Assembly (NCBI GenBank): GCA_018667995.1
Contig: JABIQT010001117.1
Span: 1-7,133 of the forward strand
DNA: 7,133 nucleotides
From: Candidatus Latescibacterota bacterium
GTDB taxonomy: Bacteria > JAAXHH01 > JABIQT01
Direction of reading: 5' to 3'
Every line of letters begins with the position of its first letter. Positions within the stretch are counted from its first letter, which is position 1. The translations under genes and the position numbers were made by a program. The notes under the pieces were generated by a model, which made no database searches, was not told the DNA's origin, and saw only the letters and a list, made by a program, of their open reading frames with translations. This document shows, one piece after another, positions 810-6,552 of this stretch.

Positions 810-2393
810 TCATATCATCATCTGTTCATAGGGGCCCAGGTCAGTGTCTTGACCCCTATTGAAGTGTCGTCCCTTCAGGTACTTTATCTCCACTTCCACA
901 TCCCTGAGGTAGATCGCGGGCAACGTATCCGGGTCGTCCTCCAAAAGGACTATCTGTAGATTGTTTGCCCCCTGCACAGGCCAATGATTCTGGTCCAGTC
1001 GCCAAATGAACCAGTACCCGGAACCTGTACGGTACCGCGGGGCCTTCATGCGGTACATTTCGTTGATAATCCGTGCCGACGAATCGGGCAGTTCCTGGCC
1101 GTTGAGCCGGAATGATAACCTGACCTTTTCCGTCACGTTCATGACTCTCATGCGGATTATCACTTCATGGATGCGGTGCGCCCCGCCCCAGCGGGAAAGA
1201 TCATCGCTGATGGAGAAAAGAATATCTGCTCTGCCCTTAGCGGACAAGTCAGCCGGAACCTGCATGGACAGACCGGGTTCTAATGAGGGTTGACCGTATC
1301 GTCCCGTCTCCGTTGGCAGATAATAGTATTTATCCTGGGTGGCCATGATGTCTGGATGGGGCAGCTCGCGCAGCTTCTCATAAAACGTGGATTCGTAGGG
1401 CCAATTGCCGAACCAGTGACCGAGATAAAGGCCGTCAATGCCCTGTTCCCAGTAGTTGCACGCCGCGGCACGCACGATTTCAATCGGCGCCTCCTGGAGT
1501 CTATCAGAATCCACGTGGCTCTGAATAGTGCCGTGAACCCTGCACGGGTAGCCGTGAGCGGCCTGCACCAGCGATCGGAAGTTAGCCATGGTGTCGACCA
1601 GCTCTGGCCCCGAGAAGGTCTGCCCCACCAGCACATCGACGATGGCTTCCTTTATCCACGTCTTAACGTCGAGCCCTACGGACATACAGCCGTCGACGTT
1701 GGCAGGTACACGAATCACCAGCTCGCGATCGGCTCCGCTGGCCTTTACGGCCCCATGGACGCGCCGTACCCAGGCGGTCATTATCTCGCACCCGCTTGCA
1801 ATCTCATCGGGATGGAAATAGTACGGGAAATAGTTTAGCTGGAGCTCAAAGCCATCGATATCATATCGAAGTAGCGTATCCTCAATGAGTGCAAACCGTT
1901 CCTCGCGCACTTCTTCATGCTTGAAATCAAGGCATGTGAGACCGGGAAATGACGGGTCAATCCCTCCCATGCCCCCGATTTCCAGGTGTTGATTTTCGAA
2001 CCGAAAGTTCGAGCAACGCACGTCTTCATCGCGGGGTCCTCGGCCCTGCTGGACAAGAAGTGTGGGATAGATCAACATCCCTTTTTCATGTGCCCGTTGA
2101 CTCATAATAGTGAGAGGATCCTCCACCTCGTCAATGAGATGACGAGCGTTCTGGTTGGCACGCCTGAATATGAGATGGGGCCATTTCTCCACATTGTCTC
2201 CCCACAATTCGCCAACTGTGGTGTCATGTAGTACGGTGCGTCCATCGCCAAGGCAGAACATGATGGCCTGAATCGGCGTACCTACAAGTTCATCAACCCC
2301 GGCTTCGTATTCCTCGCGCTGAATGGGAGGCTCGTACATATAGATAAGTGGATGGCGGCCATCGTGGTAGAACATCATGGTAGGCTGTGCCAA
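810..2393 (-). CDS. Putative glycoside-hydrolase-like TIM-barrel protein with C-terminal beta domain
   Basis: The product is 527 residues with no signal peptide or membrane segment, so it is probably cytosolic. Translation starts at TTG 2393-2391, chosen because a perfect AAGGAGG lies 6 bases upstream; the next in-frame ATG (residue 6) would be 21 bases away. Residues 1 to about 345 read like a (beta/alpha)8 barrel of the family-10-like glycosyl hydrolase type: a strand MLIYPTLLV near 106-114, YDIDGFELQLNY at 177-188 followed by aromatic and His/Asp/Glu residues, and GIDGLYLGHWFG at 318-329. E183 and D197/E198 are plausible active-site acids, but I cannot assign catalytic roles. Residues of about 376-505 alternate hydrophobic and polar residues like a beta-sandwich. 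It lies 19 bases downstream of the substrate-binding protein gene, so the two are almost certainly cotranscribed. A sugar-processing role is inferred from fold resemblance only; another TIM-barrel enzyme is possible. Confidence 0.6.
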   Translation of the reverse strand: MAQPTMMFYHDGRHPLIYMYEPPIQREEYEAGVDELVGTPIQAIMFCLGDGRTVLHDTTVGELWGDNVEKWPHLIFRRANQNARHLIDEVEDPLTIMSQRAHEKGMLIYPTLLVQQGRGPRDEDVRCSNFRFENQHLEIGGMGGIDPSFPGLTCLDFKHEEVREERFALIEDTLLRYDIDGFELQLNYFPYYFHPDEIASGCEIMTAWVRRVHGAVKASGADRELVIRVPANVDGCMSVGLDVKTWIKEAIVDVLVGQTFSGPELVDTMANFRSLVQAAHGYPCRVHGTIQSHVDSDRLQEAPIEIVRAAACNYWEQGIDGLYLGHWFGNWPYESTFYEKLRELPHPDIMATQDKYYYLPTETGRYGQPSLEPGLSMQVPADLSAKGRADILFSISDDLSRWGGAHRIHEVIIRMRVMNVTEKVRLSFRLNGQELPDSSARIINEMYRMKAPRYRTGSGYWFIWRLDQNHWPVQGANNLQIVLLEDDPDTLPAIYLRDVEVEIKYLKGRHFNRGQDTDLGPYEQMMI

Positions 2394-2412: not shown

Positions 2413-4089
2413 TTATTCTATATTGGAACCGATGTAGACGTCCATGTAGCCCGTGTTGTTTCCCCAAAATGGAAAGAATCCGTTCTTGTCGCGCTTGATT
2501 CCCTTTATCCAGGGCTTACGCAGGGAGGCAATCTTATCATAGTAAATGAAGGCGGCGCCTGCATCTTCTGCCAGGATCTTTTCAGCCTTTTGATAAAGCC
2601 CAATTCGCCGATCCGGATCCATCTCTGAGGCCGCTTGATCAACCAGGGCATCAAATGATTTATTCGCCCATGGATGGCGACTATATCCCTTTGGCTGAGA
2701 ATGCCATACCATTGATAGCATATTGTTGGGATCCGGATAATCATAATGGTACTGAATCAGGCTCATGGGAATCTGCCACTGGAATTGGGCCGCCCGATAG
2801 GCGCTTCGCTCGACTACGCGGATATCCAGATTGATATTCAGATTCTGCTTTAGCATCTGCTGAAGAGCCTGGGCCGTAATCTGGTTGTCGATTCTGTTTA
2901 TCCAAAGTTCTTGTCTTGGAAAACCCCTGCCATTGGCATATCCGGCCTCTGCGAGAAGCTCACGTGCCCTTTTTACATCGAACCGTTGCAGGTCGTCGAA
3001 TCTTCCGTCCGAATATCCCGGGAACCCGGGCGGCAACATGGTGTATGCGGGTTCCGCCATTCCCTGAAGTACCACACGGCAGATCAACTCACGATCGATG
3101 GCATGTGCGATAGCCCGCCGAACGCGGACGTCGCCGAATGGGGCCACGTTCGGATCAAAGAACAGGTAGTTTGTTTCGAAGTCCGGACTGATGTCCAGTT
3201 CATGACGGAGCTGGGGATGTGAGCTGATACGTGGAAGATCTACAGGCGTAAGCAGTTGATAGTCGACCTCATTGTTCTCGTAGGCCAAGGTCCCACCAGC
3301 CATCAGATCTGTATTTGTGAAGATACCAACTATTCGCTCCAGATATGCCTTGTGGGGACCATTGTATAATGGGTCCAGGACAAATTCGAATTTGGTGCCG
3401 TGGAGCCATGAATCCAATTTGAAAGTCGAGTTGCTTACGCAATTCTCAGCCTCCGTCCATCTTGGCCCATATTTTTCGACCTGCCAGGAAGGAACGGGAC
3501 CCGACGTGGGGAATGAGGCGATTAGTGGGATGTAGGGACATGGCCTCTCCGTAGTTATTACAAATGTGTAATCATCGATGGCCTCCAGGCCTAGTTTGTC
3601 TGCATCCTTCAATTGTCCCTGATTGAAAGCTTGAGCGCCCTTAATATCATAGTAAAGAGAGGCATTCACATTGGCGCTGGCAGGATCTACTATTCGCACA
3701 TAGGTATAAACAAAGTCGTGTGCCGTTACGGAACGGCCATCGCTCCACTTTGCGCCACGCCTCAGGTGGAAGGTCCACTGATGCCCATCATCCGAGACCT
3801 CCCAGCTATCCGCCGCCGCCGCCGTGAGTTCGTTGTTTTCATCCAGCCTCGTTAGGCCCTCGAATGAGAATACGGCGCCACCGGCCTGATATACCGCAAT
3901 ACTAATATCTAATGTGGTCGGTTCCTGGAGTAGAAAACGGTACGTCTGTCGTTCCAGAGGGGCGGCGTCTGACGGCATGGTCTTGCCAACCGTATTGGTT
4001 ATCACCTGAGCTGAATAGACATTTACTGCAATGCTCGAAGATAAAATCAGGAGACCGACAATGAGCCTTTTTCCTGGCACATACAGCAT
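2413..4089 (-). CDS. Oligopeptide-type ABC transporter substrate-binding protein (SBP family 5, OppA-like)
   Basis: The product is 558 residues, the usual length of OppA/DppA-type receptors. The N-terminus has a Sec-type signal: K7-R8, a hydrophobic core at 9-22, and a likely cut after VYS or VYSA near residue 26-27. There is no lipobox cysteine, so it should be a soluble periplasmic or released receptor. The family 5 signature is clear at 92-130: AADSWEVSDDG, then WTFHLRRGAKWSDG and TAHDF. Other conserved blocks are STFKLDSW (221-228), DVRVRRAIAHAIDR (320-333) and DYPDPNNM (450-457). C184 and C217 could form a disulfide. The end (SLRKPWIKGIKRD, 522-534) resembles OppA more than nickel- or sugar-binding members. 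The ATG at 4089 has AAGGA 9 bases upstream. It is first in its operon, ahead of the TIM-barrel gene, and divergent from the racemase-like gene. No permease or ATPase genes accompany it here. The family also carries non-peptide ligands, so substrate is open. Confidence 0.92.
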   Translation of the reverse strand: MLYVPGKRLIVGLLILSSSIAVNVYSAQVITNTVGKTMPSDAAPLERQTYRFLLQEPTTLDISIAVYQAGGAVFSFEGLTRLDENNELTAAAADSWEVSDDGHQWTFHLRRGAKWSDGRSVTAHDFVYTYVRIVDPASANVNASLYYDIKGAQAFNQGQLKDADKLGLEAIDDYTFVITTERPCPYIPLIASFPTSGPVPSWQVEKYGPRWTEAENCVSNSTFKLDSWLHGTKFEFVLDPLYNGPHKAYLERIVGIFTNTDLMAGGTLAYENNEVDYQLLTPVDLPRISSHPQLRHELDISPDFETNYLFFDPNVAPFGDVRVRRAIAHAIDRELICRVVLQGMAEPAYTMLPPGFPGYSDGRFDDLQRFDVKRARELLAEAGYANGRGFPRQELWINRIDNQITAQALQQMLKQNLNINLDIRVVERSAYRAAQFQWQIPMSLIQYHYDYPDPNNMLSMVWHSQPKGYSRHPWANKSFDALVDQAASEMDPDRRIGLYQKAEKILAEDAGAAFIYYDKIASLRKPWIKGIKRDKNGFFPFWGNNTGYMDVYIGSNIE

Positions 4090-4143
4090 ATCATTGCGTC
4101 CTTGTCCGGTTGTGGGAGACGAGATGTCCGTGAATTAGTTGAG

Positions 4144-4155
4144 GTTATCCATAAC
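4144..4155. repeat. 12-base dyad next to the leftward -10 box (possible operator)
   Basis: GTTAT-CC-ATAAC is a perfect inverted repeat with a 2-base centre. It directly abuts the leftward -10 hexamer (4156-4161) and covers the predicted transcription start. That is a typical place for a repressor to act. The two-base centre argues against an RNA hairpin. A 5+5 dyad is short enough to occur by chance, so position is the only reason to list it. Confidence 0.3.
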
Positions 4156-4183
4156 ACTATAAACGGCTCGTTCCAGGAATCAA
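4156..4183 (-). promoter_or_regulatory. Candidate sigma-70-type promoter for the binding-protein operon
   Basis: On the minus strand TTGATT (4183-4178) is separated by 16 bases from TATAGT (4161-4156), matching consensus at 4 of 6 and 5 of 6 positions. Transcription would begin near 4149 and leave a leader of about 60 bases before the ATG at 4089. Confidence 0.45.
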
Positions 4184-4229
4184 GAGATAGCTGCTTGAAA
4201 ACACGTGGCCATACTTTCTCGCATATCGA

Positions 4230-4258
4230 TTGCCGGCGGAACGATGGTCTGTTATATT
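4230..4258 (+). promoter_or_regulatory. Candidate sigma-70-type promoter for the racemase-like/amidohydrolase operon
   Basis: TTGCCG (4230-4235), a 17-base spacer, then TATATT (4253-4258), matching consensus at 4 of 6 and 5 of 6 positions. Transcription would begin near 4265, about 45 bases before the GTG start at 4309. It lies back to back with the leftward promoter, with 46 bases between the two -35 boxes, room for one shared regulator site. Confidence 0.45.
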
Positions 4259-4296
4259 GCGGTTCGATTATTCGAAAAGCACGCAGTTCTCAGATC

Positions 4297-4302
4297 AAGG
4301 AG
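4297..4302 (+). promoter_or_regulatory. Shine-Dalgarno deciding a GTG start
   Basis: AAGGAG lies 6 bases before GTG 4309-4311. It fixes the start of the racemase-like gene well downstream of the most distal in-frame ATG (4102), whose leading stretch overlaps both candidate promoters. Confidence 0.8.
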
Positions 4303-4308
4303 TGCCCT

Positions 4309-5415
4309 GTGACGATTTCTGATGTCACTGTAGAACGATACACCTGGCCGAAGCCAAAACCCATCCGAAATGGCAAGTACACCTACGCAACGGTGGGACT
4401 GAATCTGGTCAATGTACATACGGACGAAGGCGTTTCGGGCATAGGGTGGGCGGGCGGCACCGCCGCGGGAAGGCCGGGAGAAATCGTATCCGCCTTGGTT
4501 GAGCACTACAAGCAGGCTCTGATAGGTGAGGATCCATTCGATTATCGGCGGCACTGGGATGCCATGTGGGAGCCCAAGATCGTAGGTCGGCGGGGCATGT
4601 CCACACAGGTTCTGAGTGCCATCGACATTGCCTTGTGGGATCTTATGGGAAAAATCCTTAAAAAGCCCGTGCACAAGCTTCTGGGCGGATTCCGGAATCG
4701 AATTCCCACCTATATCGCAGGCGGGTATTACGAGGAGGGGAAGGGGTTGAAGGAGCTCGCTCAGGAGATGGAGGACAGTCTTAGTCTGGGGGCACGAGCT
4801 GTTAAAATGAAAATCGGCGGGGTGACCATTGGGGAAGATGTTGAACGGGTGCGTGTGGTGCGTGAAACAATAGGTCCGGATATCAAGCTGATGGTGGACG
4901 CTAACAACGCCTATGCAGCCTATGAAGCCATAGATATCGCGCGAAAGATAGAGCCCTACGACATTTTCTGGCTCGAGGAGCCGGTAGCTCCTGACGATTA
5001 CGAGGGACATGCGCGGGTAGGTCAGTCTACACCCATACCCGTTGCGACGGGCGAGAATGAATATACGCGATATGGATTCCGCGATCTCATATCGCATCAT
5101 TCTGCAGATATCCTAAACGCGGACGCGCAGATCCTCGGTGGGATTACGGAGTTTATGCAGGTATCCGCCCTGGCCGCCGCCCATGATCTCCGCATCGCGC
5201 CTCACGGTGCTCAAGAAATTCATATTCATCTGGTTACGGCCATTTCCAACGGCTTAATCCTGGAGTTCTACAGGGAAACTGTGGATCCACTTCGCGGTAA
5301 GATATTCAAGAATCCACTTACTATTGACAAAGACGGCTGCACAACTGTTCCGGACCGTCCCGGACTGGGTGTTGAGCCGAACTACGAGTTGTTGAACGCC
5401 TACCGGGTTGGTTAG
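4309..5415 (+). CDS. Mandelate racemase/muconate lactonizing enzyme family protein (enolase superfamily)
   Basis: Read from GTG 4309 the protein is 368 residues, the usual family length. The open frame extends upstream to ATG 4102, but those 69 codons lack family resemblance and cover promoter-like DNA. The N-terminal capping domain covers about 1-125 and the barrel about 130-345. Visible catalytic residues: K166-x-K168 (VKMKIGG), metal ligands D197 (VDANN), E223 (WLEEP) and E249 (GENE), the D272/H299 pair (NADAQ; APHG) and E319 (LEF). Every one lies exactly two positions after the known mandelate racemase residue (164, 166, 195, 221, 247, 270, 297, 317). This places it in the mandelate racemase subgroup, whose members abstract a proton next to a carboxylate on Mg2+; most are acid-sugar dehydratases, some racemases. 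It is cytosolic. The substrate is not readable. It is first of two genes, followed closely by the amidohydrolase, and divergent from the binding-protein operon. Confidence 0.93.
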   Translation: MTISDVTVERYTWPKPKPIRNGKYTYATVGLNLVNVHTDEGVSGIGWAGGTAAGRPGEIVSALVEHYKQALIGEDPFDYRRHWDAMWEPKIVGRRGMSTQVLSAIDIALWDLMGKILKKPVHKLLGGFRNRIPTYIAGGYYEEGKGLKELAQEMEDSLSLGARAVKMKIGGVTIGEDVERVRVVRETIGPDIKLMVDANNAYAAYEAIDIARKIEPYDIFWLEEPVAPDDYEGHARVGQSTPIPVATGENEYTRYGFRDLISHHSADILNADAQILGGITEFMQVSALAAAHDLRIAPHGAQEIHIHLVTAISNGLILEFYRETVDPLRGKIFKNPLTIDKDGCTTVPDRPGLGVEPNYELLNAYRVG

Positions 5416-5423
5416 GCTAATAT

Positions 5424-5428
5424 GGAGG
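5424..5428 (+). promoter_or_regulatory. Shine-Dalgarno supporting a GTG start inside the longer frame
   Basis: GGAGG overlaps the most upstream ATG (5422) and lies 5 bases before GTG 5434-5436 in the same frame. The ATG itself has only a weak TAGG before it. The GTG start also gives the usual family N-terminus (a short lead into YDLIIYAGRV). Confidence 0.55.
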
Positions 5429-5433
5429 CTTAC

Positions 5434-6552
5434 GTGTTTGACTATGATTTGATCATCTATGCCGGCCGAGTGTTCTGTGAGGACACAGGTCTTGATGGGC
5501 CGGGAGCGGTTGCGATTGTGGGAGACAGGGTTGTGGAATCGGGAGCAGGCATAGCCGGATCGGCGAAGCAGACATTACGGTTTCCTGATGCGGTACTTCT
5601 CCCGGGATTGATTGATATGCATGCCCACCCCGGGCTACCCGAAACGCGCTATGGTGTGGATCCAGATGTAGAATTTCTGCGACGAGGCGTAACAACTGTG
5701 TTATCGCAAGGGGATGCTGGGGCGGGAGATCTCGATGAATATCTGGAAAAGGTGATAGCGGTGAGCAAAACACGCGTGCTCCTTGCTCTGAATCTTTCCA
5801 GAACCGGTGAAAAGAATCCCATTGCTAACATGGAATCGATCGATGATGCCGATACAAAGGCCTGTATTGCCGCGATCGAGTCAGGCGGAGATGCCATCTG
5901 GGGAATATCGTTCAACACAGGTACACATAATCCAGTAGATCCCCACGAGGTGATGGATCGCGGTCTTAGTGTGGCCGAGGCCACCGACAGTCCCATATTA
6001 TTTGGGAGCCGACAAGCTTCGGATTGGTCTCTGGATGACCAGCTCGCCCTTCTGCGGCCTGGTGACATCCTGACGTACTGCTTCAATGGTCGACCGGAAA
6101 ATCTCCTGGAAGACGGAGCCGTCAGGACAGGCGTGCTTGCCGCGAGCGATCGTGGGATCCGGTTTGATGTGGGGCACGGGATGGCATCCTTCAGTTATAG
6201 CATCGCCGAACCTTGTATCGAACAAGGATTCTGGCCTGATACCATATCCTCTGACCAATATCGCGAGCACACTGGTAGTGTACCACAACATGATCTCCCG
6301 CGTACCTTGTCCAAGTTAATTGCGGCGGGTATGCCCGAAGAGGATGCTTTTGCGAGAGTCACCTCACGTCCGGCTGAACTACTCGGTCTGAGCGAGGAGA
6401 TTGGTACGTTGATGCCGGGGGCCTGTGCAGACCTTGCTGTACTGAAATACAACGAAAGAGCGTCGTCGTTAGAGGACGTCGACGGCGTCAAAAAGCAGGG
6501 AGGCTGCTGGGAACCAGTGGCGACAGTCAGAGCAGGTGAGGTGGTATCCTGA
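5434..6552 (+). CDS. Amidohydrolase family protein, EF_0837/AHA_3915 deacetylase-like, with altered metal site
   Basis: From GTG 5434 the protein is 372 residues; an ATG at 5422 would add four. It is cytosolic, with no signal peptide. The order matches amidohydrolase/deacetylase proteins: N-terminal beta part (DLIIYAGRV), PGLIDMHAHPG with H63 and H65, RRGVTTVLSQGDAGAG, LNLSRTG at 119-125, DVGHGMASFSY around H248, DTISSD with D274, TSRPAELLGL at 310-319 and GACADLAVL at 329-337. Relatives hydrolyse amide bonds of small N-acyl compounds with one or two metals. Here the strand-4 position usually holding the carboxylated Lys reads GISFN (S159), the strand-5 His position reads PILFGS (G191), and the strand-6 His position reads LTYCFNG (Y215). 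HxH and the strand-8 Asp remain, so one metal could still bind, but classical binuclear hydrolysis looks unlikely. It begins 18 bases after the stop of the racemase-like gene (6 from ATG 5422), so the two are cotranscribed. Family call is firm; activity is not. Confidence 0.85.
   Translation: MFDYDLIIYAGRVFCEDTGLDGPGAVAIVGDRVVESGAGIAGSAKQTLRFPDAVLLPGLIDMHAHPGLPETRYGVDPDVEFLRRGVTTVLSQGDAGAGDLDEYLEKVIAVSKTRVLLALNLSRTGEKNPIANMESIDDADTKACIAAIESGGDAIWGISFNTGTHNPVDPHEVMDRGLSVAEATDSPILFGSRQASDWSLDDQLALLRPGDILTYCFNGRPENLLEDGAVRTGVLAASDRGIRFDVGHGMASFSYSIAEPCIEQGFWPDTISSDQYREHTGSVPQHDLPRTLSKLIAAGMPEEDAFARVTSRPAELLGLSEEIGTLMPGACADLAVLKYNERASSLEDVDGVKKQGGCWEPVATVRAGEVVS

Follow-up and report, generated by a model that had tools for sequence, protein, structure and literature searches.

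The window, the whole 7,133-nucleotide stretch that was analysed, carries an amidohydrolase-superfamily gene with an enolase-superfamily gene just upstream. The genes called are:

810-2393, minus strand: open reading frame of 527 aa whose sole match is a sub-threshold one to GHL10 (glycosyl hydrolase-like)
2413-4089, minus strand: family-5 (oligopeptide-type) solute-binding protein, divergent from the enolase/amidohydrolase pair
4102-5415, plus strand: enolase-superfamily gene with MR_MLE N- and C-terminal domains and the KxK, D, E and H motifs; its stop lies 6 bp before the amidohydrolase ATG, and translation probably begins further downstream than TTG 4102
5422-6552, plus strand: amidohydrolase-superfamily gene, 376 aa from the ATG at 5422 (alternative start GTG 5434), with the stop ending at 6552

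The 376-aa protein scores above the gathering threshold for Pfam Amidohydro_1 (PF01979) and Amidohydro_3 (PF07969). Its best NCBIfam matches, NF006689 (PRK09237), PRK12394 and TIGR03583 (EF_0837), are all well below the curated cut-offs. For NF006689 the window protein reaches 256 bits against a cut-off of 371 and four relatives reach 237-260 bits; these five subfamily members thus fall 111-135 bits short, while the canonical paralogue L003 passes with 398. Using phmmer, we obtained near full-length alignments to 8WZY, 2ICS (EF0837), 8JE0 and 2OGJ. The same four structures are top by far when an AlphaFold2 model (21-row alignment, pLDDT 91.7, pTM 0.93) is compared with known folds by Foldseek and VIA-align 2 (Z 45-49, rmsd 1.8-2.4 Å); the remaining amidohydrolases do not exceed a Z of about 30, and, apart from EF_0837-like ones, dihydroorotases come much further down both the fold and the sequence lists. 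The EF_0837-type overall pattern that a first-pass annotation had recognised is therefore borne out by phmmer and profile alignments and by a confident model. Judged from sequence and model, the protein belongs to the amidohydrolase superfamily, with a predicted (β/α)8 fold and with the strand-1 HxH and the strand-8 Asp present.

In the superfamily assignment as listed for a related enzyme, the Mα metal is held by HxH, Lys and the strand-8 Asp, and the Mβ metal by the Lys and two other His (PMC6478659). In the phmmer and profile alignments to 2ICS, 8WZY and 2OGJ, GISFN of the window protein stands opposite GIKAR/GLKAR/GLKVR, ILFGS opposite LMVHI/MMVHV, and LTYCFNG opposite LTHCFNG/ITHCYNG/VTHCFNG. 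Since these three motif blocks line up with solved relatives, S163 occupies the position of the bridging Lys, G195 that of the strand-5 His and Y219 that of the strand-6 His. Residue numbers are counted from the ATG at 5422 and equal those of the first-pass annotation, which started at GTG 5434, plus 4; its S159, G191 and Y215 do align at the Lys, His and His sites, and its H63, H65 and D274 (H67, H69 and D278 here) are indeed kept. No Lys or His from elsewhere in the chain is restored to the lost sites by alignment or model. The positions are given below, with counts for the window protein plus the best 80 of 186 relatives (81 proteins, see below) and for 22 canonical homologues:

5620-5628, plus strand: codons of H67-A68-H69, the strand-1 HxH, Mα ligands, retained (H67 81/81, H69 81/81; canonical 22/22)
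5908-5910, plus strand: codon of S163, position of the bridging (carboxylated) Lys in strand 4 (A 66, S 11, T 3, C 1, together 81/81; canonical Lys 22/22)
6004-6006, plus strand: codon of G195, position of the strand-5 Mβ His (Gly 81/81; canonical His 16, Asp 6)
6076-6078, plus strand: codon of Y219, position of the strand-6 Mβ His (Tyr 81/81; canonical His 22/22)
6253-6255, plus strand: codon of D278, the strand-8 Asp, Mα ligand or general base, retained (81/81; canonical 22/22)

By its residues, then, the clade lacks exactly the Mβ ligand set (Lys, His, His) and keeps the Mα-only set (HxH, Asp). Sequence comparison likewise places the window protein outside the EF_0837/NF006689 equivalogue, because the bridging Lys and both the strand-5 and strand-6 His are missing and the family cut-off is not reached, while L003 reaches it.

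The closest homologues share the substitutions, as a check of this point revealed for twelve orthologues in genomes of the same order (58-63% identity) and for all of the best 80 of 186 relatives. Paralogues from the same order, at about 33-36% identity, keep the canonical ligands. The 186 relatives came from a profile scan of genome contigs, with the best 80 (43-62% identity) taken for analysis, some of which share genomes with the twelve orthologues; a single-protein scan of the contigs, run before the profile scan, found no relatives. The 80 derive from metagenome-assembled genomes of Latescibacterota, Gemmatimonadota, Poribacteria, Zixiibacteriota, Chloroflexota, Planctomycetota and Spirochaetota. 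The patterns used to retrieve them included TTV[ML]SQGDA and GLVDLHAH, so part of the conservation of D98 and of HxH reflects the search itself; these patterns did not cover the lost-ligand positions, and SQGD is also found in the twelve orthologues, which were retrieved by protein search without patterns. We sought intermediate ligand sets in 384 genomes and found none, with 11 further homologues all canonical at the Lys, His and His positions. A separate EF_0837-type branch in related and distant genomes (L024, L128-L132) has Asp for the strand-5 His (AMIDF/VMIDF) and keeps the Lys and the strand-6 His; by sequence it is another metal-site variant. Within the subfamily, the otherwise conserved H252 of the GHG motif is absent in four members, and a sub-branch from Dehalococcoidia/SAR202 (L118, L110, L116) has Asp at H252 and Thr at R197.

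We found that the losses are accompanied by a coordinated gain of S95, Q96, D98, E130, H283 and H290, which was absent from the first-pass annotation. N165 and R197 (75/81) are additional gains. According to DSSP on the model, the gained residues lie at or just past the C-terminal ends of the strands, which is the active-site face. Their codons are:

5704-5715, plus strand: S95-Q96-G97-D98 after strand 2, D98 being a candidate to replace a lost metal ligand (S, Q, G and D 81/81 versus D-A/T-G-S/G/T in canonical homologues)
5809-5811, plus strand: E130 after strand 3, a new invariant acid (Glu 81/81 versus L/M/I)
6010-6012, plus strand: R197 after strand 5, new and near-invariant (Arg 75/81, His 3, Thr 3)
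6268-6291, plus strand: residues 283-290 in the loop after strand 8, with the new pair H283 (81/81) and H290 (80/81); canonical residues are S/N at the former and mostly Y/A/F at the latter

D98 aligns to Asp89 of L007, a D-aminoacylase-like protein from the same genome, and this Asp89 falls on the GNCG Cys (Cys96) of the D-aminoacylase 1M7J; the alignment step behind the match of D98 with Cys96 covers a local stretch of 92 residues at low identity (29%). The strand-2 Cys is a metal ligand in subtype V, being Cys97 in the homologue OngB (PMC12017989). With D98 at the position of D-aminoacylase Cys96, the metal site may hold more than three ligands, and the lost Lys may be functionally replaced by this strand-2 Asp.

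Maximum-likelihood analysis of 103 proteins puts the whole subfamily on one side of a single branch (support 100/100, recovered in 100% of bootstraps), with a long stem of 1.07 changes per column; given a program warning of long branches meeting and the midpoint root, we claim a clean split and read no direction from the tree. The canonical ligand set is taken as ancestral because it is present across the superfamily. The reading frame, described as intact in the first-pass annotation, is open over 5422-6552, and dN/dS between close orthologues is 0.10-0.13. The gene is hence under strong purifying selection, with no decay. Chance or decay is excluded as a source of the substitutions, since G195 and Y219 are both invariant (81/81) and dN/dS is that low.

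Compared with EF_0837/PRK09237 (NF006689; 2ICS, 2OGJ, 8WZY, 8JE0), the subfamily has the same fold at 25-30% identity and the HxH, GHG and SxD motifs in common. However, it forms a separate clade in which the Lys and the strand-5 and strand-6 His are all replaced, VDAG(S) gives way to (L/M)SQGD, and E130, H283 and H290 are new. D-aminoacylase and the carbohydrate deacetylase OngB (subtype V, β-mononuclear; 1M7J, 3GIP, 9KB1) are more distant in fold (Z about 28 to the window model). Both they and the subfamily keep HxH and Asp and have a ligand-type residue after strand 2, Cys96/97 there and D98 here; their metal sits at Mβ, held by Cys/His/His, and they retain the His of strands 5 and 6, which in the subfamily are Gly and Tyr. 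With Asp at the Cys position and Gly and Tyr at the His positions, we rejected assignment of the window protein to D-aminoacylase (subtype V).

Several superfamily members have reduced metal sites. Uronate isomerase has HxH and Asp without the Lys or the two other His, like the set remaining in the subfamily. The likeness to it drawn in the first-pass annotation is correct for these surviving ligands and extends to nothing beyond them: the overall similarity of the window protein is to hydrolases, and uronate isomerase is not among the listed Pfam, NCBIfam and PDB sequence matches or the 50 fold-comparison rows, an absence that does not amount to exclusion. The latent dihydroorotase of Aquifex aeolicus (1XRF/1XRT, 3D6N) also has a reduced metal site and the same fold, but its Z of about 30 falls well short of the 45-49 reached by the EF_0837 relatives. 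The lactonase LigI combines the superfamily fold with a reduced ligand set and is reported to be metal-independent, whereas the whole Mα set is kept in the subfamily; no kinship to LigI is seen among the listed fold and sequence matches of the window protein, and a search of the open-access literature on its mechanism returned nothing. The α-mononuclear deaminases keep the strand-5 His as a ligand, in contrast to Gly in 81/81 subfamily members. This α-mononuclear class, of the adenosine/cytosine deaminase type, has one metal at Mα with HxH and Asp; the class itself is named in PMC12017989.

Overall, the simplest reading of these residues is a predicted single-metal (Mα) enzyme with a rebuilt active site. 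We consider it reasonably likely that the window protein belongs to a distinct, widespread sister clade of EF_0837/PRK09237 (cog3964-type) whose members are catalytically active and bind one Mα metal via H67, H69 and D278, probably also D98. Under this mechanism, D98 at the end of strand 2, at the Cys ligand position of D-aminoacylase, would help to hold the metal, which would polarise water or a substrate oxygen; acid-base chemistry would come from D278 together with the new H283, H290, E130 and Y219, and N165/R197 would bind the substrate. The first-pass annotation had proposed a mononuclear enzyme with a changed reaction. Its mononuclear part agrees with the loss of the Mβ set and retention of the Mα set; a changed, possibly non-hydrolytic reaction is plausible, and hydrolysis by one metal equally so. 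By analogy, we slightly prefer hydrolysis by one metal, as in adenosine or cytosine deaminase, over a non-hydrolytic step like that of uronate isomerase. More tentatively, the clade could represent a new metal-site subtype spread over several uncultured phyla, in which HxH, D98 and the strand-8 Asp hold one Mα metal, the strand-2 carboxylate replaces the strand-4 Lys, and the reaction is not one known in the family (possibly a non-hydrolytic one).

The loss of three of the six canonical ligand residues could also mean that no metal is bound at all, with HxH and Asp serving as acid-base residues in a LigI-like manner. Metal-independent members are a recognised class of the superfamily (PMC12017989), and several of the new His, Asp and Glu could take acid-base roles. 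But the complete Mα set is kept in 81/81 and a new Asp stands at a known ligand position, and we regard this explanation as unlikely. The same Asp, along with the other new invariants that accompany the losses, can instead be read as part of a rebuilt binuclear site, where D98 would stand in for the bridging Lys and Y219, H283, H290 or E130 for the two His. Against this, Gly and Tyr are poor stand-ins at the two His positions, and H283 and H290 follow strand 8, near the Mα side of the barrel. We know of no subtype with such a ligand set and think it quite improbable.

That the three losses left a non-catalytic pseudoenzyme, acting as a binding or regulatory protein, is very improbable given the invariant HxH and Asp, the gain of six or more polar residues at the active-site end, the presence in several phyla and the purifying selection. 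Finally, the overall similarity to NF006689 and TIGR03583 might suggest that the protein is a normal EF_0837-type deacetylase and that its ligand positions were aligned wrongly. This is scarcely credible: the motifs align clearly to solved structures, agreement is 81/81, canonical homologues align without conflict, and all five members scored miss the NF006689 cut-off that the canonical paralogue passes.

From its sequences, the subfamily is apparently an undescribed yet widespread bacterial amidohydrolase clade. We found no family model or paper for it among Pfam and NCBIfam models and the open-access literature, where a search for cog3964 gave nothing relevant either; to our knowledge, its ligand set, in which Gly occupies the strand-5 position and Tyr the strand-6 one, has not been described. 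Current models score the clade as relatives of deacetylases and metallohydrolases (NF006689, TIGR03583, below cut-off), yet it is without the two-metal residues, which marks genes in uncultured phyla whose annotation is likely wrong. With one of its metal sites switched cleanly and completely, the clade is a natural experiment in how a binuclear hydrolase becomes something else.

The first-pass annotation also had the enzyme working with the adjacent enolase-superfamily partner, a link that proved weak. At 10/81 loci (window plus best 80 of 186), an enolase-superfamily gene is found no more than 1.5 kb away, in either orientation, as judged with a home-made gene caller that missed some genes; these neighbours belong mostly to unrelated subgroups (21-35% identity), and the source genome has about 50 such genes. 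The enrichment (P-value = 0.036 raw) loses significance after merging of related loci (P-value about 0.10-0.17), and other lineages have different enolases or none; we therefore rejected the partnership as a general feature of the clade. The window's neighbours are absent around the same-order orthologues, except for one distant enolase-superfamily gene beside the L020 orthologue. No operon partner conserved across the clade was found in the 81 loci, where lineage-specific neighbours include enolase-superfamily proteins, SelA-like PLP enzymes, M81 peptidases, DapA-like aldolases, isochorismatase, Gfo/Idh, FAD oxidases, class III aminotransferase and BNR proteins. The neighbourhood does not pinpoint the substrate. 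A canonical amidohydrolase paralogue from the same genome (L167, 333-5842 of its contig) lies downstream of two enolase-superfamily genes. In some Planctomycetota (L106, L111, L120), the subfamily gene occurs with genes for a SelA-like PLP enzyme, an MFS transporter, an M81 peptidase, an isochorismatase-like protein and enolase-superfamily proteins, a set that may mark one catabolic cluster.
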